Assembly: GCA_947447005.1 (NCBI GenBank)
Contig: CANFHO010000006.1
Coordinates: 1 to 48,795 of the forward strand
Reading direction: 5' to 3'
Length of the DNA stretch: 48,795 nt
Source: Chitinophagaceae bacterium
Lineage (GTDB): Bacteria > Bacteroidota > Bacteroidia > Chitinophagales > Chitinophagaceae
The position numbers were made by a program, and so were the translations under genes. Positions 1 through 38,761 of this stretch are shown here, in pieces (the first letter of the stretch is position 1; every line of letters begins with the position of its first letter). The notes under the pieces were generated by a model. The model ran no database searches. It worked only from the letters and a program-made list of their open reading frames with translations, and was not told where the DNA came from.

Positions 1-639
1 CATGGTTTTCAGTATTTGTTTGAATCAGATGACGCAGGCAATACTTGGAGAAGAATCAGCGGAGATTTGACATATAATGATAAAAGCAGAATGGGTAAGA
101 CTCCTTATGCAATCAATCATCAGGCCATTACAGCCATGGATGAATCTCCTCTCAAGAAGGGCTTGTTGTATGTGGGAACAGATGATGGTCGCGTTTGGGT
201 AAGAGATGGAGCTTCCGGAACATTTACAAACATTATGAAAGGTATTCCTCAGAATGCCCATACATCCAGGCTTGTAGCCTCTTCACACAAAGAAGGGCGT
301 GTTTATTTAAGCTTGAGCAATAGAAGGGAAGATGACAACAATGTCTATGTGTATGTATCAGAAGACAAGGGTGCAACCTGGACAAGCATTGCATCTAATT
401 TGCCCAAGGCTCCGGTGAATGTGATCAGGGAAGATGATAAGGATGCAAATAAACTGTATTGCGGAACCGACATGGGAGTATATATCAGTACCAATCGTGG
501 GAAAACCTGGAGTTCATTGCAAGGCAATCTTCCTGCGTCTGTTTCTGTTCAGGATTTGTTCATTCATCCCCGCGACAGGAATGTGGTGATTGCAACGTAT
601 GGGAGAGGGGTCTTTATATTGGAAGGCAATAGGCAATAG
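1..639 (+). CDS. BNR/Asp-box repeat secreted protein, C-terminal part (5' end outside the window)
   Basis: The frame is open from the first base, so the start lies upstream of the window. The visible C-terminal part holds repeated Asp-box-like units (SDDAGNTW, SEDKGATW, STNRGKTW) and ends with YGRGVFIL, typical of the sortilin/VPS10-like seven-bladed propellers of Bacteroidota that are usually annotated as glycosyl hydrolase or BNR-repeat proteins. Such proteins are exported; the substrate is unknown. The last residues (GNRQ) and the TAG stop are written by the first units of the repeat element that follows, so the natural C-terminus may have been replaced by repeat sequence. The family assignment is good; any enzymatic role is open. 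Confidence 0.8.
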   Translation, partial: HGFQYLFESDDAGNTWRRISGDLTYNDKSRMGKTPYAINHQAITAMDESPLKKGLLYVGTDDGRVWVRDGASGTFTNIMKGIPQNAHTSRLVASSHKEGRVYLSLSNRREDDNNVYVYVSEDKGATWTSIASNLPKAPVNVIREDDKDANKLYCGTDMGVYISTNRGKTWSSLQGNLPASVSVQDLFIHPRDRNVVIATYGRGVFILEGNRQ

Positions 640-824
640 GCAGTAGGCAGTAGGCAAGGAGGCAAGGAGGCAAAGAGGCAAGGAGGCAAGGAGGCAAAGA
701 GGCAAGGAGGCAAAGAGGCAAAGAGGCAAAGAGGGGGGCAGCCAGTCTCAGTTCAACAGTTATTGGCTGTTCTTCTCTTTGCCTCTTTGCCTCTTTGCCT
801 CTTTGCCTCTTTGCCTCTCCTTGC
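625..824. repeat. Hairpin repeat element 1 (GGCAATA and GGCAAAGA units)
   Basis: The left arm (about 625-735) starts with 7-bp units GGCAATA/GGCAGTA and then changes to 8-bp units GGCAAGGA/GGCAAAGA. The right arm (about 775-824) is the reverse complement of the 8-bp units. The apex contains CAGCCA (739-744) facing TGGCTG (764-769). The element fills the whole gap between two convergent genes and contains the stop codon of the left gene. Its arms mix two unit types, which suggests recombination between families. Confidence 0.9.
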
Positions 825-4297: not shown

Positions 4298-6724
4298 ATG
4301 ATAGTGAAGGCTTATTCTGATTATGTATGTATCCATTGTGGAGAATCTTGTAATGGCAAGATCAACAATGGCATGTATTCTTTCTGTTGTGAAGGATGCA
4401 TGCAGGTATATCTGCTCATCAGTGAAACAGACGTTTGTGATGTAGAGCAAATGCAAAAGCTCGCAGGCATCCGGCCCAAAGGAAGATTTGTGCAAGACAA
4501 ATGGAATTATCTGGATGAGCCCACCATTGCAAGAAAGCTTGTCAATTATCAAGACAGCAAACATACCCATATACAATTCAGTCTTCCTCAAATGCATTGT
4601 TCAAGTTGCATCTGGTTATTGGAACATCTTGGAAGAATCAATGGAGCCGTGGTTTCCAGCAAAGTCGATTTTGATAAAAAAGAAATCGTTGTGGTGTATG
4701 GAACAGATAAGCTGAAGCTGAGTGAACTCGCAGCTTTATTGGATTATATCGGATATCCGCCTGCCGTAAGTTATAAGGATAATGAAAAGAAAGAGACGCA
4801 ACAATCCAATCGGAATGAGATTATACGAATTGGTGTTGCAGGTTTTTGCTTCAGCAATATCATGATGCTCAGCTTTCCGGATTACCTTGCATCAGATGGT
4901 TTGGATGAAAAATTGTTGGAACATGTATTCAGCTATCTTAGTTTGGGATTGGCCATTCCTGTTTTCTTTTATGCAGCATCGCCATTTTTTATTCAGGCTT
5001 GGAAGGGACTTCGGCAAAAATGGCTGAATATCGATAGTCCGATTGCCTTTGCCATTTTGGTTACATTCCTTCGGAGTATATATGAGATTACAACGGATTC
5101 CGGAACAGGTTATCTCGATTCCATGAGTGGTATTGTATTCTTCATGTTGGTAGGAAGGTGGTTTCAATTGAAAACACAAAATGCGGTTTCATTTGAGCGA
5201 GATTACAAATCATATTTCCCGATGAGTACATTGGTGATTAAGGATGGGATGCGACAATACAAAACAATTGATAAACTGGATAAGGGAGATCAGATATTGG
5301 TGAGAAATCAAGAGTTGATACCCGCAGATTCTATCTTGAAAAAAGGCCAAGCGCTCATTGATTATAGTTTTGTTACAGGAGAGAATGAACCTGTGCCCGC
5401 AGTTCAAGGCAGTTTGGTGTATGCAGGAGGAAAGCAGTTGGGGACAGGGATTGAACTGGAAGTAGTGAGGACAGTTTCAACGAGTCATTTAACCAGATTG
5501 TGGAACAATGATGTTTTTCAGCATAATAAAAACAAGGAAGAATCTTTCATTCATCCATGGAGTTATTATTTCAGCATCGGTTTGTTTTCTGTAGCCATCA
5601 TTGCAGCCATATACTGGCAGATGCATGATCCAACCAAAACCTGGAAGGCCATAACATCTGTGTTGATCGTTGCTTGTCCTTGTTCACTTTTATTGTCGGC
5701 AACATTTACTTTCGGAAATCTGATGCGCATTTTTGGTCGGAATGACATGTACCTGAAGAATGCAAATGTGATTGAAAAAATGGGGGATGCAGATGTGGTG
5801 GTATTTGACAAAACGGGAACACTTACGTCCAGCAGTGGTTCAGCCATTCAATATGAAGGTGAGGTATTAACAGAAGAAGAGATGTTGAAAGTGAAGACCA
5901 TTGCACTGCAATCGAATCATCCACTGAGCAAGATCTTATCATCGTGGTCTGAATGGGATTCTTTGAAGGAAACAGATGATATTCATGGTTTCAAGGAAAT
6001 TCCAGGGAAAGGGATGGAGGCAAATATTGGAGGATCCATCATTAAATTGGGTAATCACGGGTATACATGGGAAGAAAGTTTAATTGAATATACCAAGGGC
6101 GAAAGCGATGAGGGTGCAGTTATATATGTCAGTATAGATGGGAAAGCGAAGGGTCGGTTTATATTACAGCAGAAATATAGGGAAGGCGTTTTTGAGGCGA
6201 TATATCAAATCAAAAGAAGTATTGCGGCTATACATGTTTTGAGTGGAGACAATAGCTGGGAGGAGGGTTATTTGCGACATCGATTGGGAAATGATACTAT
6301 TTTAAAATTTGGACAATCGCCACAAGAGAAACTGGAACATATACAATCCTTGCAAAAAAATGGCCACAAGGTTATCATGATTGGTGATGGTTTGAATGAT
6401 GCAGGCGCATTGCAACAAAGTAATGTTGGTATTTCGGTCACTGATCTTTCAAATCATTTTACTCCAGCCTGTGATGCAATTTTATCGGGAAAACAAATGA
6501 GTAAATTAGATGGACTTTTTAATTTGTCAAAAGCAGGAAAAGCCATTGTTGCTGCTAGTTTTGCTTTGTCCATTGTGTATAATATTGTTGGATTATCATT
6601 CGCAACAAAGGCATTGCTATCTCCTTTGGTTGCTGCTATTCTTATGCCAGTCAGCTCCATCAGTATTATTTTATTGGTTACGCTTTTGGGGAATTTGGTT
6701 GCCAGGAGGGAAGCGCTTAAATAG
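4298..6724 (+). CDS. ccoI: Copper-translocating P1B-type ATPase CcoI/FixI
   Basis: This 808-residue ATPase carries an N-terminal cysteine-rich domain (CIHC, CCEGC) and a heavy-metal-associated domain with MHCSSC near residue 100. The membrane metal site ACPCSL, the actuator motif TGE (FVTGENEPV), the phosphorylation motif DKTGTLT and the hinge GDGLNDAGAL follow in order. The combination of an extra N-terminal cysteine domain with CPC is typical of CcoI, which exports copper for CuB assembly of cbb3 oxidase. Its position just upstream of ccoS and the oxidase subunits supports this. The TAG stop overlaps the first unit of repeat element 4. Confidence 0.93.
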   Translation: MIVKAYSDYVCIHCGESCNGKINNGMYSFCCEGCMQVYLLISETDVCDVEQMQKLAGIRPKGRFVQDKWNYLDEPTIARKLVNYQDSKHTHIQFSLPQMHCSSCIWLLEHLGRINGAVVSSKVDFDKKEIVVVYGTDKLKLSELAALLDYIGYPPAVSYKDNEKKETQQSNRNEIIRIGVAGFCFSNIMMLSFPDYLASDGLDEKLLEHVFSYLSLGLAIPVFFYAASPFFIQAWKGLRQKWLNIDSPIAFAILVTFLRSIYEITTDSGTGYLDSMSGIVFFMLVGRWFQLKTQNAVSFERDYKSYFPMSTLVIKDGMRQYKTIDKLDKGDQILVRNQELIPADSILKKGQALIDYSFVTGENEPVPAVQGSLVYAGGKQLGTGIELEVVRTVSTSHLTRLWNNDVFQHNKNKEESFIHPWSYYFSIGLFSVAIIAAIYWQMHDPTKTWKAITSVLIVACPCSLLLSATFTFGNLMRIFGRNDMYLKNANVIEKMGDADVVVFDKTGTLTSSSGSAIQYEGEVLTEEEMLKVKTIALQSNHPLSKILSSWSEWDSLKETDDIHGFKEIPGKGMEANIGGSIIKLGNHGYTWEESLIEYTKGESDEGAVIYVSIDGKAKGRFILQQKYREGVFEAIYQIKRSIAAIHVLSGDNSWEEGYLRHRLGNDTILKFGQSPQEKLEHIQSLQKNGHKVIMIGDGLNDAGALQQSNVGISVTDLSNHFTPACDAILSGKQMSKLDGLFNLSKAGKAIVAASFALSIVYNIVGLSFATKALLSPLVAAILMPVSSISIILLVTLLGNLVARREALK

Positions 6725-6872
6725 GCAATAGGGAATAGGCAATAGGCAGTAGGCAGTAGGGAATAGGCAGTAGTTGGTTGACAAAAGAAGCTTTAATATA
6801 AATAAATTTAATCTATTGCCTACTGCCTATTCCCTTCTGCCTATTGCCTACTGCCTCCTTGCCTCTTTGCCT
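6722..6872. repeat. Hairpin repeat element 4 (GGCAATA/GGCAGTA/GGGAATA units)
   Basis: The left arm (6722-6772) is 7-bp units GGCAATA, GGCAGTA and GGGAATA; the right arm (6812-6872) is their complement and finishes with two 8-bp GGCAAGGA/GGCAAAGA-type units. The AT-rich loop lacks the CAGCC apex. The stop codon of ccoI is the first TAG of the left arm. Mixed 7- and 8-bp units again point to recombination between unit families. Confidence 0.9.
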
Positions 6873-31797: not shown

Positions 31798-31830
31798 GGT
31801 GAATGTGTTTAGGCTACAAATATAATAAAG

Positions 31831-31924
31831 CGAAAGGTGAAAGGTGAAAAGAGAAAGGAGAAAACAGCCGTTTATTTCTTTCGGCTGTTTCACTTTTCTC
31901 TTTTCTCTTTTCACTTTTCTCTTT
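31831..31924. repeat. Hairpin repeat element 5 (GAAAGGT/GAAAAGA units, CAGCCG apex)
   Basis: The left arm (31831-31870) is 7-bp purine units (GAAAGGT, GAAAAGA); the right arm (31882-31924) is CACTTTTCTC-type complement. The apex is a 9-bp perfect stem AAACAGCCG/CGGCTGTTT around an 11-base loop. It separates the usp stop codon from the deoxyhypusine synthase-like start, and the usp stop codon (minus-strand TAA) overlaps the outer end of the right arm. Confidence 0.92.
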
Positions 31925-32744
31925 ACCTGTGTGCCACAAACACCGGTATCTTATGTTTTTCTATAATTTCTGCCAGGAAACTTTTCTTGAATAGATTGGA
32001 AAATTCGCTTCTGCCGAAAGCACCGGCAACAAGTAAGGTTTTTTCCTTGACCGACATGCTTTTAGCAAAGGATCTGTCTGAAATGGATGAAACTACCTCT
32101 AAGGTGAGATTTGAAAAATGTTTGGAAGCCAATTCCTCAATCATTTCCTGATATGGAAGTGGATCCTGTTCATCTTCAATGGTAACCAAGGTGGTGTCCC
32201 ATTCATGAAATTGAGGAAACAAATAAGAGAATTGTTTTATGGCAAAGACAGAATCTGATTTGCCATCGTATGCAAGTACAATTTTGTTAGGCATGGTATA
32301 ATCTTCCGGAACCAGCAGAATAGGACATTCCGTTTGTCTGAGCATTTTTTTCAGATATTCATTTGGTTGATCTCTTCCAATATTTTCATAAAAAAGTTCT
32401 GCACTCAGGATCATAAAATCTGCAAACCTTGTTTCAGTCTGAAGTTCCTGCAATGCAAAAAGTTCTGTGTCTTTATGAACCCGGAATTCCAAACCTTCAT
32501 GTAAACATTTACTTTCAAAATAGCTGATGTTTTGGTTGATATGGCTCTCGTCGGTTTCAATGGGAGAAATGTTTATGGAGGTATCTGATTGAAATCCACT
32601 GTATCCAATGATATCCCTGTAATCGATCGCCTGCAGGAAAACGCCAGTTACCAGCAAACGCTCACTCTCATTGAGGTAGCTGGCCATTTTAAATGAACCT
32701 TCAGAAAAATGCTTTCCATCAAATACCAGAATTACTTTTTTCAT
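31923..32744 (-). CDS. Tandem universal stress protein
   Basis: The 273-residue protein contains two Usp domains (about 1-140 and 145-273). The second begins with MPNKIVLAYDGKSDSVFAIK and ends with LVAGAFGRSEFSNLFKKS, a Usp ATP-loop region, and IPVFVAHR. Universal stress proteins respond to starvation, anoxia and other stresses. It is the second gene of an operon after the TerB-like protein (14 bp), behind a CRP/FNR-like promoter. Confidence 0.9.
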   Translation of the reverse strand: MKKVILVFDGKHFSEGSFKMASYLNESERLLVTGVFLQAIDYRDIIGYSGFQSDTSINISPIETDESHINQNISYFESKCLHEGLEFRVHKDTELFALQELQTETRFADFMILSAELFYENIGRDQPNEYLKKMLRQTECPILLVPEDYTMPNKIVLAYDGKSDSVFAIKQFSYLFPQFHEWDTTLVTIEDEQDPLPYQEMIEELASKHFSNLTLEVVSSISDRSFAKSMSVKEKTLLVAGAFGRSEFSNLFKKSFLAEIIEKHKIPVFVAHR

Positions 32745-33839: not shown

Positions 33840-34980
33840 AATGGTGAAATATGATTATATCATCGCTGGCGGTGGTTTGTCAGGATTGAGCCTGGCTCAT
33901 AGATTTATTCACGACCCGTTCTTTGCACATAAAAAAATCCTGCTGATTGAACGGGAACAAAAAAATCAAAACGACCGTACCTGGTGCTTTTGGGAAAAAG
34001 GTATCGGACATTTCGAAGACATCGTATACCGCAAATGGGATCATGCCTGGTTCCATTCCAATTTTCACTCTGAGCGTTATGCATTGCATCCCTATCAATA
34101 TAAAATGGTGAGAGGGATAGATCTCTACAAATGTTGTTATGATCTTATTGAATCTGCTCCCAATATTGAAATGAGGTATGCCAGCGTCTCTTCCATCAAT
34201 CAAATGGACGATTGCATTGAAGTTGTAACCAACAATGATATATTTTATGGTGAATATGTATTTAGCAGTATTTTTTCTCCCGATGAATATTTAAAAAAAG
34301 GAAGGCACAACCTTTTGCAACATTTCAAGGGATGGGTCATTGAAACACCTACTGATCAATTCGATCCGACAACTGCTACTTTGATGGATTTCAGAATGGA
34401 TCAAAGACATGGCACAACATTTATATATGTCATGCCCTTCTCTGAAAGAAAGGCTTTGGTGGAATATACCTTGTTTTCAAAGGAGGTTCTCCTTCAGGAT
34501 GAGTATGTTCTGGGTTTGCAACAATATATCAGCACTCAGTTGAATATTTCTGAATTTACAATTACAGAAGAAGAATATGGAGTGATTCCCATGACGGATC
34601 ATGGTTTCAATGGTAGAGATGGTAATATTATATATGTAGGAACCGCAGGTGGACAAACGAAAGCATCCAGTGGATATACATATCAATTTGTGCAGAAACA
34701 ATGTAATCAGATTGTTGAAAAAATAAAAACCACCGGTAGTCCGGTGGTTGTAAATTCTTTTATGCAAAAACGATTCAAATGGTATGATCGTGTGCTGTTG
34801 AATGTGCTGTACAACAGAAAAGTTGCAGGAGATCTTGTTTTTTCTTTGTTGTTCAAAAGAAACAACATCAAACGATTGTTCTCTTTCCTTGATAATGAAT
34901 CAAAGGTTCACCAGGAACTTTATTTACTAAACACATTGCCAAAGATTCCTTTTATGTTATCAGGTTTGGAAGAAATGTAA
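33829..34980 (+). CDS. crtY: Lycopene beta-cyclase CrtY
   Basis: The 383-residue flavoprotein has YDYIIAGGGLSGLSLAHR, the diagnostic NDRTWCFWE and YVGTAGGQTKASSGYT. It cyclises lycopene ends to beta-ionone rings. The start could be ATG 33829 (11-bp overlap with crtZ) or ATG 33841 (one base after it); the conserved domain starts at the latter, so four N-terminal residues are uncertain. With crtZ it gives hydroxylated rings, complementing the acyclic-end genes at 17-19 kb. Confidence 0.93.
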   Translation: MKNEMVKYDYIIAGGGLSGLSLAHRFIHDPFFAHKKILLIEREQKNQNDRTWCFWEKGIGHFEDIVYRKWDHAWFHSNFHSERYALHPYQYKMVRGIDLYKCCYDLIESAPNIEMRYASVSSINQMDDCIEVVTNNDIFYGEYVFSSIFSPDEYLKKGRHNLLQHFKGWVIETPTDQFDPTTATLMDFRMDQRHGTTFIYVMPFSERKALVEYTLFSKEVLLQDEYVLGLQQYISTQLNISEFTITEEEYGVIPMTDHGFNGRDGNIIYVGTAGGQTKASSGYTYQFVQKQCNQIVEKIKTTGSPVVVNSFMQKRFKWYDRVLLNVLYNRKVAGDLVFSLLFKRNNIKRLFSFLDNESKVHQELYLLNTLPKIPFMLSGLEEM

Positions 34981-34986
34981 GGAAGT

Positions 34987-35505
34987 TTATTTCAGAAACT
35001 TCACAATTTCTTCGTCCATTGGTTTCACTCCACTAGGAAATACTGCCAATAATTTTCCTTGTTCGTCCAAAAGGAATTTTGTGAAGTTCCATTTGATTTC
35101 TGCATCCAATACGCCATTTTCTTTCTTGGAAGTAAGCCATTTGAAAAGCGCATGTGTGTCGTCTCCCTTTACAGAAACCTTTTCTGCAAGAGGGAAGGTT
35201 ACACCATAATTCTTTTTACAAAATGCATTGATCTCTGTGTTGCTTCCAGGTTCTTGTCCGCCGAAATTATTGGCAGGAAATCCAACAATCACCAATTTGC
35301 TTTTGTAGGTTTCATATAGCTTTTCCAGATCTTCATATTGAGGAGTATACCCACATTTAGAAGCGGTATTCACGATCAATATTTTTTTGCCCTTAAAGCT
35401 TGAAAAGTCGATGATGCCACCATCAATAGATGTCACTTTGAAACTGTGCACAGAGTTACCACCCAGGGTAAAAACAGCAAGTGCCATGAGTATAAATTTA
35501 GACAT
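34987..35505 (-). CDS. Glutathione-peroxidase-family protein, exported
   Basis: The 172-residue GPx has an N-terminal signal-like segment (FILMALAVFTLGG), the peroxidatic site NTASKCGYTPQ, VGFPANNFGGQEPG, and IKWNFTKF. I chose ATG 35505; an earlier in-frame Met adds 26 residues without similarity and lies in the repeat-rich spacer. It is convergent to crtY with a 6-bp gap. It is shorter than, and lacks the lipobox of, the other GPx at 19762-20454. Confidence 0.9.
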   Translation of the reverse strand: MSKFILMALAVFTLGGNSVHSFKVTSIDGGIIDFSSFKGKKILIVNTASKCGYTPQYEDLEKLYETYKSKLVIVGFPANNFGGQEPGSNTEINAFCKKNYGVTFPLAEKVSVKGDDTHALFKWLTSKKENGVLDAEIKWNFTKFLLDEQGKLLAVFPSGVKPMDEEIVKFLK

Positions 35506-35586
35506 AAGTAAAGGTTTTGTTGAATATAACACATTTGATTCAATAAAGTTTTCACAGCTCCCCTTCATTTTATATTTCTCCATATT

Positions 35587-35631
35587 CCGTTGCCTGAAGG
35601 CAACGGCAACAATATTAAACCCCCTTCGGGG
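35587..35631. repeat. Double hairpin motif in the GPx-comF spacer
   Basis: A perfect palindromic hairpin, CCGTTGCC-TGAA-GGCAACGG (35587-35606), is followed 14 bp later by CCCC-TTC-GGGG (35621-35631). The two stems with a fixed-looking AT-rich linker resemble a dispersed intergenic motif more than a simple terminator, as no T-run follows on either strand. It differs from the 7- and 8-bp unit repeats. Confidence 0.7.
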
Positions 35632-35689
35632 CTATTTAGTGATTGCTTCATTTGGATTTTTTACTTCATTCAGCCATTTTTATGCAATT

Positions 35690-35751
35690 GCCTACTGCCT
35701 ACTGCCTACTCCCTACTGCCTACTGCCTACTGCCTACTCCCTCTTTGCCTT
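35690..35751. repeat. Single-arm GGCAGTA repeat after comF
   Basis: About eight 7-bp units, TGCCTAC with some TCCCTAC, end with one 8-bp unit and run into the comF stop codon. No complementary arm is present nearby; an isolated CAGCCA lies 20 bp before it (35671-35676). It looks like a half element of the family seen in full at 6722-6872. Confidence 0.8.
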
Positions 35752-36445
35752 AAAGTGTAAACGCCAAACTACATATACTTACCGAACCTGCTCCCTGGGA
35801 GAGCAGGGTTTGTGCACATGCTTCAGTGGAGGCACCCGTGGTAATTACATCATCAATGATCAGAATATTTTTTCCTCTCATCATTTCAATGTCTGTCACT
35901 TCAAATACATCCGCCACATTTTCCCATCTTTCCATCCTGCTTTTTTTAGTTTGGGTTGATGTGTGTTCAATTCTTTTTAAACCGGTTTCATTATAGGGGA
36001 TCTGTGTGATTTCTGATATTCCCTCGCATAACAAGGATGCCTGGTTGTATCCACGGATGTATTGTTTTTTTTTGTGTAAAGGCATGGGTATGGCAAAGTC
36101 TATCTGATGCTGCTGTAACAGTAATTGTATTCTATGAGCCATCAGTCTCCCCATGAAAATAGCAAGCTCCTTTTCGTTTTTGTATTTGATGTTGTGGATG
36201 ATTTGTTGAATGGGACTTCCAGGGATGAAATAAAAAATGCTGCAAATGAATCTGTATTCTATTCTTCCCCAGAACATTTTCTCTGTGGCATTTCCCTGAA
36301 TCTTTTCAAAACCAGTGTAGGGAAGTTGAAGTAGGCAATCAAGACAAAGAAATTCAGTGTTTTCGATTTCTTCATTGAAACATCCAAGACAAATGCTAGG
36401 GTATAGAAGATGCAGCAGAGATGAGAGCATGTAGGATGGAGTCAT
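35750..36445 (-). CDS. comF: ComF-family phosphoribosyltransferase-like protein
   Basis: The 231-residue protein has an N-terminal double zinc-finger-like CxxC pair (CLGC, CLDC), a central IKYKNEKELA, the loop IPMPLHKKKQYIRGYNQA, and the PRPP signature ILIIDDVITTGAST. ComF proteins support DNA uptake or double-strand break repair in some bacteria. The stop codon is supplied at the border of the adjacent repeat. Confidence 0.93.
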   Translation of the reverse strand: MTPSYMLSSLLHLLYPSICLGCFNEEIENTEFLCLDCLLQLPYTGFEKIQGNATEKMFWGRIEYRFICSIFYFIPGSPIQQIIHNIKYKNEKELAIFMGRLMAHRIQLLLQQHQIDFAIPMPLHKKKQYIRGYNQASLLCEGISEITQIPYNETGLKRIEHTSTQTKKSRMERWENVADVFEVTDIEMMRGKNILIIDDVITTGASTEACAQTLLSQGAGSVSICSLAFTL

Positions 36446-36450
36446 AGTTT

Positions 36451-36505
36451 AGGCAAGGAGGGGATATGAAATTTAATCAAGGCAAAGAGGCAAGGAGGCA
36501 AAGAG
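36451..36505. repeat. Left arm flanking the four-helix-bundle gene
   Basis: The core (36479-36505) is GGCAAAGA-GGCAAGGA-GGCAAAGA in 8-bp units, with one more unit (AGGCAAGGAG) at 36451-36460. It is the inverted counterpart of the right arm at 36971-37032; about 24 bp match without a mismatch. It ends 7 bp after the stop of the enclosed gene. Confidence 0.9.
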
Positions 36506-36511
36506 TAGTAT

Positions 36512-36883
36512 TTAAGTATTTTGTAAAGAGAGTTTCTTAATGATGGCATATAGAATTTTATCAACTTCATTTGACAAAGCAGTTAGCCTAGTACAACTTG
36601 CTTCATCTATGTAACCCAGTTCTTTTGAAAGTTCTAGTTGAGTCTGAAACTCAAAAAGTGATCCTTTGGCAATATGTAAGAATCTTATATAATCTTGTTT
36701 TGATTGTCTTCCGTATCCTTCTGCAATATTAGAGGGAATGGAAACTACGCATCTTTGAATTTGACGATAGAGGCAATATTGTTCTTTCGGAGGTAGTTTT
36801 GCTATGATTGGGTAAGTCATTTTAACAAGTAGCATTGCCTTTTGCCAAACAATAAGATCTCTGAATGATTTGATTGTATTCAT
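36512..36883 (-). CDS. Four-helix-bundle protein (S23/23S rRNA intervening-sequence type)
   Basis: The 123-residue protein matches the S23 / TIGR02436 family: FRDLIVWQKAMLLVKMTY, then KEQYCLYRQIQRCVVSIPSNIAEGYGRQS and FLHIAKGSLFEFQTQLELSKELGYID. Relatives are encoded inside 23S rRNA intervening sequences of Leptospira and Coxiella and are structurally similar to the Avd accessory protein of diversity-generating retroelements. They form pentamers and bind nucleic acids. Here the gene is enclosed by inverted 8-bp-unit arms of the dispersed repeat family and has no other partner, which makes it the best candidate for an element-borne gene. Confidence 0.93.
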   Translation of the reverse strand: MNTIKSFRDLIVWQKAMLLVKMTYPIIAKLPPKEQYCLYRQIQRCVVSIPSNIAEGYGRQSKQDYIRFLHIAKGSLFEFQTQLELSKELGYIDEASCTRLTALSNEVDKILYAIIKKLSLQNT

Positions 36884-36970
36884 GATGCAAGGTTACAATC
36901 ATTCCACACTGATTAAAAGTGTAAAACTTCATTTTTAAAGTTATTTTTCACTTTTGTCAACGTGAAAAAT

Positions 36971-37032
36971 CTCTCCTTGCCTCTTTGCCTCCTTGCCTCT
37001 TTGCCTCCTTGCCTCCTTGCCTCTTTGCCTTT
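36971..37032. repeat. Right arm flanking the four-helix-bundle gene
   Basis: Seven to eight 8-bp units (CTCCTTGC/CTCTTTGC) form the reverse complement of the left arm at 36451-36505 and are about twice as long. It ends 4 bp before the radA stop codon and lies about 90 bp upstream of the four-helix-bundle start. Confidence 0.9.
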
Positions 37033-37036
37033 TACA

Positions 37037-38401
37037 TCAATGAAAAATCGTCCTATAAACCTCCTCAATCAAAGCTACATTAATTGCCTTGATCCCTTTG
37101 GATGTTTCGGACCTTCTATTGTATTTGCTAATAACGATGTTTTCAAAGCCGAGTTTTTCTGCTTCGGAGATGCGTTGATCGATGCGATTGACTGCACGGA
37201 TTTCACCGCTTAATCCTACTTCTCCAGCAAAGCAAATTTTTTGTGACAGTGGAATGTCTTCATAAGAACTGAGCAATGCAAATACCATGGCCAAGTCAAT
37301 GGCTGGGTCTTCCACTTTGAGTCCCCCTGCAATGTTTACAAAGACATCTTTGGTGCCGAAATGAAATCCTCCACGCTTTTCCAATACTGCCAGTAACAAT
37401 TGCAATCGTCTCAAATCAAAACCACTTGCCGTGCGTTGAGGCGTTCCATAAACAGATGGAGTAACGAGTGCCTGTACTTCAATCAATAAAGGACGAAGTC
37501 CCTCCATGGTTGCACCAATGGCGATGCCACTGAGTTGTTCTTCTTTTTGATTGATGAGGATGTCGGACGGATTGGCAACTGGTTTCATTCCCATGCCAGT
37601 CATTTCATAGATGCCCAATTCTGCAGTTGATCCAAAACGATTTTTAGTGGTACGCAGAATGCGATATGCATAATGTTGATCGCCTTCAAACTGCAGAACC
37701 GTATCCACCATGTGTTCCAATAATTTTGGTCCCGCGATGCTGCCATCTTTGGTGATGTGTCCGATTAAGAAAACAGGTGTTTGTGTTTCTTTGGCGAAGC
37801 GTTGGAATTCGGCAGTGCATTCACGAATTTGTGAGATGGTGCCTGGCGATGAGTCTATATAATTGGATTGAATGGTTTGTATGGAATCAACAATCACCAA
37901 TTGTGGTTTGATTTTTTTGATTTCCTGGAAAATACTTTGTGTGGATGTTTCTGTCAGCAGATAGAATTCATCATGTTGAACATTGATACGATTTGCGCGC
38001 ATCTTGATTTGTTGTTCACTCTCTTCTCCGCTGATATATAATACACGCAGTTGATGCATCATCAATGCATCCTGTAAAAACAATGTTGATTTTCCAATGC
38101 CAGGTTCTCCTGCTACCAGCACCAGACTTCCGGGAACAATGCCACCACCCAATACGCGATTCAATTCATCGTCTTTGGTAACAATGCGTTCTTGTTCATT
38201 GGATACCACTTCTTGCAGCACAATGCTTTTAGTATGCTTTGAGTCTGTTTCTTTCCAGCTTTGTTTTGTTCCTGATGATTCCTTGTGAATGATTTCTTCT
38301 GTGAATGTATTCCATTCATTGCATGACGGACATTTACCTGCCCACTTGGCAGATTCATAACCACAGTTTTTACAGAAGAAAGCTTTTTTTATTTTGCTCA
38401 T
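37037..38401 (-). CDS. radA: DNA repair protein RadA (Sms)
   Basis: The 454-residue protein has the N-terminal C4 zinc finger (CKNCGYESAKWAGKCPSC), a RecA-like ATPase with Walker A GEPGIGKST near residue 100, the RadA-specific KNRFG motif, and the C-terminal Lon-like domain (FVNIAGGLKVEDPAIDLA). It is a DnaB-like helicase that extends D-loops during recombination. Its 3' end touches the right repeat arm and its 5' side faces another hairpin element. Confidence 0.96.
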   Translation of the reverse strand: MSKIKKAFFCKNCGYESAKWAGKCPSCNEWNTFTEEIIHKESSGTKQSWKETDSKHTKSIVLQEVVSNEQERIVTKDDELNRVLGGGIVPGSLVLVAGEPGIGKSTLFLQDALMMHQLRVLYISGEESEQQIKMRANRINVQHDEFYLLTETSTQSIFQEIKKIKPQLVIVDSIQTIQSNYIDSSPGTISQIRECTAEFQRFAKETQTPVFLIGHITKDGSIAGPKLLEHMVDTVLQFEGDQHYAYRILRTTKNRFGSTAELGIYEMTGMGMKPVANPSDILINQKEEQLSGIAIGATMEGLRPLLIEVQALVTPSVYGTPQRTASGFDLRRLQLLLAVLEKRGGFHFGTKDVFVNIAGGLKVEDPAIDLAMVFALLSSYEDIPLSQKICFAGEVGLSGEIRAVNRIDQRISEAEKLGFENIVISKYNRRSETSKGIKAINVALIEEVYRTIFH

Positions 38402-38416
38402 TTTATAAAGTTATTA

Positions 38417-38622
38417 GGCAAAGAGGCAAGGAGGCAAAGAGTGAATAAGGCAAAGAGAAATTTTGAAAAATATATTTTGCTTTTGTAATTTTCAATTGAT
38501 TGTTTTTACTTATTTCTTTCAGTCATTTTTCAAATTAATTTTTGATTGCAGAATTTTTCATTCTATAATTTTTATGATTCATATTTTTAAATCACTCTTT
38601 GCCTCTTTGCCTCCTTGCCTCC
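38417..38622. repeat. Inverted GGCAAAGA/GGCAAGGA repeat upstream of radA
   Basis: The left arm (38417-38444) and the right arm (38592-38622) are 28-bp inverted copies with two A/G differences, sharing the inner end GGCAAAGAGTGA. One extra unit lies at 38447-38457. They enclose about 150 bp of AT-rich sequence without a convincing gene. The layout is like the pair around the four-helix-bundle gene, but with an empty interior, as in a deletion derivative. Confidence 0.88.
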
Positions 38623-38633
38623 ATCCCTTTGTT

Positions 38634-38715
38634 AAAAACCAAAGGGCCAGCAGAAGCCGACCCTTTAGTACTTACTAACCCATTAAATTCTACCACTAAA
38701 TTACAAATTGCTGTC
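38634..38715 (-). ncRNA. Candidate small RNA, or trailer with a strong terminator
   Basis: On the minus strand an 11-bp stem with loop TTCT (38641-38666) is followed by GGTTTTT, a clear intrinsic terminator, yet no intact gene is transcribed into it. A TAATTTTG element (38722-38729, minus) matches TAnnTTTG and would start an RNA of about 80 bases. Alternatively the terminator belongs to the gene remnant at 38762-39040. The terminator is well supported; the RNA is not. Confidence 0.35.
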
Positions 38716-38761
38716 ACTTGGCAAAATTAATTTTTCGTTTTTGGTCATTTTTCTTTTAGTT

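Follow-up and report, generated by a model that had tools for sequence, protein, structure and literature searches.

An S23 gene between inverted octamer arrays in a Chitinophagaceae genome, a candidate REPtron-like element with a private repeat unit

S23/IVP genes commonly lie between inverted arrays of short tandem repeats, and this layout is real, general and specific to S23 genes. The insert between radA and comF in the Chitinophagaceae genome studied here appears to be one copy of a widespread element of this kind, in which the arrays flanking the S23/IVP gene are built of 7- or 8-nt units and the unit is probably private to each S23 gene or its close relatives. Comparative analysis leads us to interpret it as a REPtron-like element, whose S23 protein, a putative ring, recognises its own private 7/8-nt unit and aids the spread of that unit. 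We put the probability of this reading at about 0.55.

The window is the whole stretch of DNA that was analysed, 48,795 nucleotides. The element and its host genes occupy the following positions in it.

36451..37032, no strand assigned: whole element, the S23 gene with both repeat arms, inserted between the radA stop and the comF start
36512..36883, minus strand: S23/IVP gene, 123 amino acids, four-helix bundle (PF05635, TIGR02436, predicted structure)
36480..36505, plus strand: left arm, an octamer array of three units, GGCAAAGA GGCAAGGA GGCAAAGA (complementarity)
36451..36461, plus strand: outermost left unit AGGCAAGGAGG, the first bases of the insert (sequence; putative boundary)
36974..37030, minus strand: right arm, seven octamer units, GGCAARGA on the minus strand (complementarity, array)
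37037..38401, minus strand: radA, the upstream host gene (TIGR00416, 2e-175)
35750..36445, minus strand: comF, the downstream host gene (TIGR00201, 4.1e-28, at 98.6 bits under the model cut-off of 233.55; adjoins radA in the parsed junctions)

On the minus strand the gene order is radA, S23, comF. The S23 gene is the sole gene recognised inside the element, within which no Y1 transposase is present. The earlier note had described an S23/IVS-type gene enclosed by inverted arms of a repeat family that also occurs as solo hairpins, and this description holds. The protein scores above the curated cut-off of PF05635 (E 3.9e-37; 127.1 bits, cut-off 33.8) and above that of TIGR02436 (2.5e-36; 124.2 bits, cut-off 24), and the left-arm stretch AGGCAAAGAGGCAAGGAGGCAAAGAG (36480-36505) pairs without a mismatch with 36981-37006 (26 nt, 100% complementary). 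The element lies between radA and comF, outside any 23S rRNA gene, and junctions without S23 point to 36451 as its probable left boundary.

To score arms, the flank preceding a gene was aligned locally to the reverse complement of the one following it. The S23 loci, taken best-score-first or picked from listings, are a non-random selection, within which scores of at least 28, 30 and 34 were reached in a first set by 59, 55 and 50 of 67 loci, compared with 8, 5 and 4 of 237 control ORFs drawn from 40 twelve-kb loci. A phylum sample gave 18 of 30 S23 loci at 28 or above. The larger set, covering the window's phylum together with plasmids, holds 196 distinct S23 ORFs from 99 genomes or plasmid records (ORFs below 85 amino acids and identical ORFs left out), of which 191 could be scored and five had too little flank; arms of at least 30 surround 119 of the 191, against 1.1% of 3000 mismatched pairs. 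All 16 plasmid loci (16 of 39 plasmid records) are within the 191, and 109 of the 175 ORFs that remain without them reach 30; with 300-nt flanks, 11 of the 16 score at least 28. Among the best 80 loci listed from named genomes of many phyla and two archaeal records, 76 could be scored (four had too little flank) and 47 of these reach 30, against 1.25% of 2000 mismatched pairs. The earlier note would have been refuted by S23 genes of relatives mostly lacking such arms, or by arms being just as common around random genes; neither was the case.

A measure blind to complementarity gives the same kind of contrast, with tandem arrays at least 75% periodic on both sides of 90 of 267 S23 genes, but of 14 of 242 controls. 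Among arrays of at least 80% periodicity, 78 sides show a lag of 7, 28 a lag of 8 and 10 another value (lags 5-12 tried), and the left-arm period among the 119 ORFs with arms is 7 or 14 in 85, 8 or 16 in 22 and other in 12. In the 5' arm, G exceeds C in 108 of these 119 (C exceeds G in six and the two are equal in five); the corresponding numbers for the named genomes, among the best 80 loci listed, are 43, three and one. S23 genes scoring below 30 number 72 of 191 in the larger set and 29 of 76 among the best 80 loci listed. At least one of these, the Luteimonas locus (L279), does have arms, the chosen start codon having fallen inside one. Residence in rRNA genes was considered for the weak-arm S23 genes and ruled out: at gathering thresholds, Rfam gave no match at the 20 S23 loci checked for lying in rRNA genes (17 scoring below 28, one unscored and two CPR records with arms).

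A single unit common to all S23 genes was likewise ruled out. Units differ between genes, even within one genome, a point that goes beyond the earlier note. The 2.9 Mb genome of the window carries three S23 genes, all between inverted arms and with three different units; the arms of the second gene (L002) consist of more than 100 nt of GTGGAAKA, and the third (L003) has weaker arms of another unit, 27 nt long and 85% complementary. Elsewhere, up to 16 S23 genes occur per genome. The window octamer pattern has 243 matches genome-wide at no more than two mismatches, against 72 for a read-backwards control, a stricter 22-nt octamer pattern has 241 against 46, and the L002 octamer has 167 against 0; S23 arms are among these matches, and one array may be matched in several overlapping registers, so the numbers are not locus counts. 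The control matches (72 and 46) look like a further octamer family, (AACGGAGR)n-like.

The window also contains solo hairpins of the same repeat family.

38416..38620, no strand assigned: solo hairpin with the octamer of the S23 arms and no gene, arms 38416-38444 and 38592-38620
623..824, no strand assigned: solo hairpin, one arm mixing the 7-mers AGGCAAT/AGGCAGT with the 8-mers AGGCAARG (sequence)
6723..6872, no strand assigned: solo hairpin, chiefly of the 7-mer form AGGCAAT/AGGCAGT (sequence)

The first is the empty pair beyond radA that had been picked out before, and its 29-nt arms are 93% complementary. In the array at 623-824, 7-mers of the form found in congeners pass into the 8-mers of the genome itself. 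This mixture suggests that array units change in place.

The window has other repeats as well. A solo hairpin at 31826-31925 has another 7-nt unit (AAGGTGA-like), one that does not occur as arms around any S23 gene of this genome, and a 7-mer array TGCCTAC lies on the far side of comF (35689-35720), where no partner arm was found. Between radA and the next gene, at about 38636-38720, there is a conserved non-coding box, ACCAAAGGGCC...CCCTTTAGTACTTACTAACCCATTAAATTCT...ACTAAATTACAAATTGC, which is also present in L209-L228; GTACTTACTAACCCATTAAATTCT occurs in 20 of 20 loci.

Cognate pairing between the S23 protein and its unit is well supported by their covariation across loci. For pairs of loci without a shared flank, arm similarity is 0.24 (n=668) at 50-55% S23 identity, 0.28 (n=170) at 55-60%, 0.39 (n=63) at 60-70% and 0.63 (n=3) above 70%, where the baseline at identities below 40% is 0.215. 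The mean over these 904 pairs, 0.261, lies above the maxima of 1000 global (0.238) and 1000 within-genome permutations (0.251), which ignore the tree; proteins of at least 200 amino acids and arms below 28 are left out of the comparisons. Mean identity to the window protein is 0.446 for the 21 loci with AGGCA arms and 0.371 for 159 others (p 5e-5). There is a counterexample, a pair with S23 proteins 67% identical and arms unlike, and shared descent may account for part of the covariation, as the tests are not tree-aware. The tendency of related S23 proteins to carry related repeats suggests recognition by the protein of the repeat copies dispersed across its genome.

The covariation involves particular protein positions. 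After binning by overall identity, covariation with the unit exceeds a z of 3 in 12 of 114 alignment columns, the null maximum having a median of 2.4 in 200 permutations. The strongest column, in the numbering of the window protein, is 57 (z 9.2), followed by 7, 11, 108, 65, 77, 6 and 62. Tyrosine at 57 goes with GGCA (16 of 35 loci, compared with 32 of 181 overall) and glutamine at 57 with TCAG (7 of 10, compared with 26 of 181). An AlphaFold2 model of the window protein (pLDDT 96.6) has helices at 11-27, 38-58, 62-88 and 94-120. Its best PDB match is 2gsc, XCC0516 (TM 0.89), a homopentamer (PMC4990558); it matches BT_0352 at TM 0.78, and the solved S23 homologues have five chains per entry. 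Topology, rather than measured distance, would place the start of helix 1, the end of helix 2 and the beginning of helix 3 together at one end of the up-down bundle, and positions 77 and 84, in the middle of helix 3, away from it.

Comparison across the genus shows that solo hairpins tend to share their unit with an S23 arm in their own genome and to differ between congeners. In 424 kb around S23 genes of other genomes, six and more, 15 solo hairpins have a mean similarity of 0.507 to an S23 arm of the genome they lie in, compared with 0.316 expected from other genomes (13 of 15; p 0.0017). Among 40 congeners, the 22-nt octamer pattern has one match each in G196 and G203 and none in the other 38. 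The 7-mer form has 107 matches in G203, 79 in G196, 44 in G206, 25 in G210 and 17 in the genome of the window, as well as 98 in G179, 17 in G173 and 2 in G174, and none in 33 genomes. At radA-comF, the S23 flanks of G203 and G196 hold 11 and 9 units of this form. It is absent from the two S23 loci examined in G210; in G206 the radA-comF copy is cut and the other S23 copy examined is without it, and in G179 one of five S23 loci was examined and was unscorable.

A different unit, AGGGACR, has 136, 47 and 35 matches in G191, G176 and G053, genomes with 16, 4 and 4 such units in their S23 flanks. It also occurs without a matching S23 arm in G185 (42 matches) and G195 (44 matches, one of two S23 loci examined), and there are 2-9 matches in eight other genomes. 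S23 was found in 27 of the 41 genus genomes. In the 14 genomes without it the octamer and the 7-mer form are absent, and AGGGACR is present in three: G211 (23 matches, no S23 found, genome 69% complete), G181 (3) and G175 (2). The octamer and the 7-mer form are missing from most S23-bearing genomes of the genus too. At the site 5' of radA, across 20 loci, some congeners have hairpins of several different units and others have none.

Comparison of junctions shows that at a particular site gene and arms are present or missing as one, mostly in sense between co-oriented genes. A query of 34900-38650 matched all 41 genus genomes (own included), with the radA part in 40 of 41, and 20 radA-comF junctions were parsed. 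Of these, four have a complete S23 gene and its arms (the genome of the window, G203, G196 and G210), in one (G206) the contig stops within S23, and 15 are without S23, the kind of absence that the earlier note proposed to look for. The radA-comF S23 proteins of G203, G196 and G210 show identities of 60, 56 and 48%. At the junctions without S23, the end of radA and the aligned start of comF are 22-83 nt apart in 13 loci and 150-165 nt in two.

Filled and unfilled junctions are also found far from this genus. On one cyanobacterial plasmid (L135) an S23 gene lies between nrdB and nrdA, antisense to both; in Calothrix NIES-4105 these genes are 40 nt apart, and the extra DNA of L135 starts and ends with heptamers. 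On two others (L134, L140) it lies between cas6 and cas4 of a type I-D CRISPR system, a spacing of 23 nt in Nostoc UHCC 0302, and on a fourth (L139) between cas10/cmr2 and cmr3. The S23 genes of Xanthomonas arboricola (L277) and X. dyei (L278) are enclosed by GGGAATC arms and separate accB from accC, the proteins being 93 and 90% identical to the XCC0516 stretch. The Luteimonas locus (L279) shares this layout; accB and accC were checked against profiles in L277 and L279. Overall, 177 of 242 S23 genes are on the same strand as both neighbours and 21 are antisense to both, compared with 112 and 29 of 244 control triples; neighbours here are crude long ORFs, and 25 S23 genes without a neighbour in reach are left out. 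No target-site duplication was recognised by eye at radA-comF or nrdB-nrdA, where the unfilled sites have diverged, exact insertion ends with a duplication were not found at nrd or cas6-cas4, and no excision events were seen at the junctions compared.

The CRISPR-associated loci have features of their own. In L134, L139 and L140 the S23 genes are inserts within CRISPR operons of types I-D and III-B, which may explain why 23S rRNA IVP appears among domain labels in CRISPR surveys, as in one figure legend (PMC10910872). The annotated cas4 start of Anabaena sp. 90 crosses the right heptamer arm (L134 3408-3475), and so the element seems to supply a new cas4 N-terminus. Where Anabaena sp. 90 has S23 at cas6-cas4, the Dolichospermum UHCC 0315A plasmid has a different MITE-like hairpin, TAGGTTGGGTT...AACCCAACCTA (L381, about 2319-2565). 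This junction was considered as an empty site and ruled out, being filled by another MITE-like element.

An alternative is that S23 is a host regulator, an RNA-binding protein that uses the solo hairpins as targets in many messages, with its own arms providing feedback and mobility being old or incidental. Arguing for this, S23 is under strong purifying selection, judging from a median dN/dS of 0.08 (25 of 32 non-independent pairs, identity at least 0.72; dS was saturated in seven), the gene is sense-oriented between co-oriented genes, and the accB-accC position is common to two Xanthomonas and a Luteimonas. Counter to this, S23 is patchy (27 of 41 genus genomes), one genome may hold several S23 genes with different units, up to 16 S23 genes occur per genome, the units of arrays vary between congeners, and arrays appear and vanish at one site. 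The authors of PMC4692102 were also unable to find a part for their arrays in gene regulation. We judge regulation unlikely to be the main explanation.

It could also be that the arrays are passive structures that grow by slippage and fold-back copying, with S23 a passenger tolerated as RNase III trims the message. Array length does vary, 7- and 8-nt units occur mixed, RNase III removes an S23-bearing insert from 23S rRNA (PMC4990558), and the arms within an element are more alike than the arms of orthologues in 17 of 29 pairs, which is not a clear difference and gives no clear sign of concerted evolution of the two arms. This explanation nevertheless strikes us as improbable, given that the unit tracks the S23 protein without a shared flank and tracks particular protein positions, that control genes rarely have arms, and that S23 is apparently selected at the protein level.

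The earlier note had hinted at a retroelement by way of Avd, and S23 might, like this relative, partner a reverse transcriptase that works on hairpin RNA in trans. The S23 model does resemble Avd (4dwl, TM 0.81, E 1.6e-3) and a diversity-generating retroelement ribonucleoprotein (8ubb, 0.76), a bAvd profile gives a weak match to the window protein (2.9e-06, below cut-off), and S23 has a sense-strand bias. The hint did not survive as the primary reading, and we rate this form of mobility as very improbable: RVT_1 (PF00078) is present in 5 of 41 genus genomes, among them G179 with one, and is absent from the genome of the window, which is 100% complete, and from G203, G196, G206, G210, G191, G176 and G053, thus from most array-rich congeners. 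That the hairpins owe their movement to a Y1 (RAYT-type) transposase encoded at another place in the genome, with S23 a mere companion, has hardly any chance in our estimate and is largely refuted, for although Y1_Tnp occurs in 23 of 41 genus genomes, with one gene in each of the five with S23 at radA-comF (the genome of the window, G000, and G203, G196, G206, G210), it is absent from G191, G176, G053, G185 and G195 despite 136, 47, 35, 42 and 44 array matches, and the element itself has no transposase.

Under the REPtron-like reading that we prefer, the S23 protein, a ring of five in a solved homologue, would recognise its own unit, perhaps one unit per subunit. Recognition would be mostly through one end of the bundle (residues of about 6-11, 57-58 and 62-65 in the window protein, together with the latter half of its helix 4), a simple picture that the covarying positions 77 and 84 in the middle of helix 3 do not fit. 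The protein may bind arms that have folded up in RNA or in single-stranded DNA, protecting or delivering them, and hairpins with the cognate unit would thereby persist, lengthen and arise at new intergenic sites. Solo hairpins would be non-autonomous followers, as REPs are to RAYT genes. The division into an autonomous element and non-autonomous hairpins, proposed at the outset, is supported: solo hairpins often share the unit of their own S23 gene, with exceptions, and mobility is our interpretation of these patterns. Because neither the RVT_1 reverse transcriptase nor the Y1 transposase is common to carriers, the catalytic step may be borrowed from the host, with replication or repair the likeliest source.

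A broader proposal, which we regard as possible though somewhat short of an even chance, is that S23/IVP proteins read tandem 7-8-nt hairpin arrays in a sequence-specific manner, by a code residing at a few positions, and that they drive a large class of prokaryotic repeat elements that can do without a transposase or reverse transcriptase of its own. The orphan heptamers of Xanthomonas and cyanobacteria and the 23S rRNA IVSs would be members, and a shift in preference would lead to the arrays of a genome being rewritten to the new unit. The finding assigns a testable role to a common protein family so far named for its place in rRNA, and heptamer repeats described without a partner gain a partner gene. 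If binding and spread hold, repeats could proliferate without a dedicated transposase or reverse transcriptase, and there would be a natural library of protein-repeat pairs from which to read the recognition code. The presence of S23 genes in CRISPR operons also finds a simple explanation, as inserts.

In the open-access literature, as distinct from subscription papers and preprints, and as far as its text was seen, we found no paper linking S23 genes outside rRNA with repeat arrays at their flanks. Related reports place IVP ORFs in rRNA inserts of CPR bacteria (PMC11270868) and four-helix-bundle genes among those unique to one Arthrospira strain (PMC8700078). The 23S rRNA IVSs of Coxiella and Leptospira are alike in having an S23 gene within a stem-forming insert. 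In Coxiella, two to three tandem heptamers GACAGAT and one degenerate copy lie just upstream of the S23 ORF (PMC4990558), an arrangement that fits an element of the window type. RNase III excises the Coxiella IVS, an older idea held IVSs to be mobile, and the Coxiella ORF looked unexpressed and decaying (PMC4990558). The window insert differs in that protein genes flank it, arrays stand on either side of S23, the repeat has many solo copies and the unit is private to the gene.

The quadruplex heptamers of Xanthomonas (GGGAATC) and Nostoc (GGGGA(C/T)T) form mostly intergenic arrays, with 70 convergent pairs in Xcc, 75 in Xac and few in Nostoc, and their role was left to be elucidated (PMC4692102). 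Most of the arrays have the same neighbouring genes in the two Xanthomonas, the regions around them are unusually stable, and they are generally unlinked to mobile elements (PMC4692102), features that count against frequent recent mobility. They resemble the arms of S23 genes in being 7-nt G-rich arrays, and the arms of S23 in L277 and L278 are GGGAATC-type units, inverted; the window unit is a different octamer. The consulted text of PMC4692102 names no partner protein, and the wording 'four helix' is absent from its main text, whereas here S23 is the associated gene.

PF05635 is kin to Avd of diversity-generating retroelements (PMC10053308). The likeness lies in the fold and in the five chains per entry of solved S23 homologues, with XCC0516 a homopentamer. 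Unlike a diversity-generating retroelement, the window element resides in a genome without RVT_1, and its S23 protein reaches 28.5 bits against the Avd model, for which the cut-off is 80.

In REP/RAYT systems (REPtrons), a gene lies between inverted copies of a short repeat, many solo copies are present, and gene and repeat covary. S23 elements differ in that S23 is not a Y1 transposase, several array-rich carriers are without any such transposase, and the repeat is a tandem 7/8-mer array. What they have in common with REPtrons is the combination of inverted repeat flanks, solo copies and covariation between gene and repeat.
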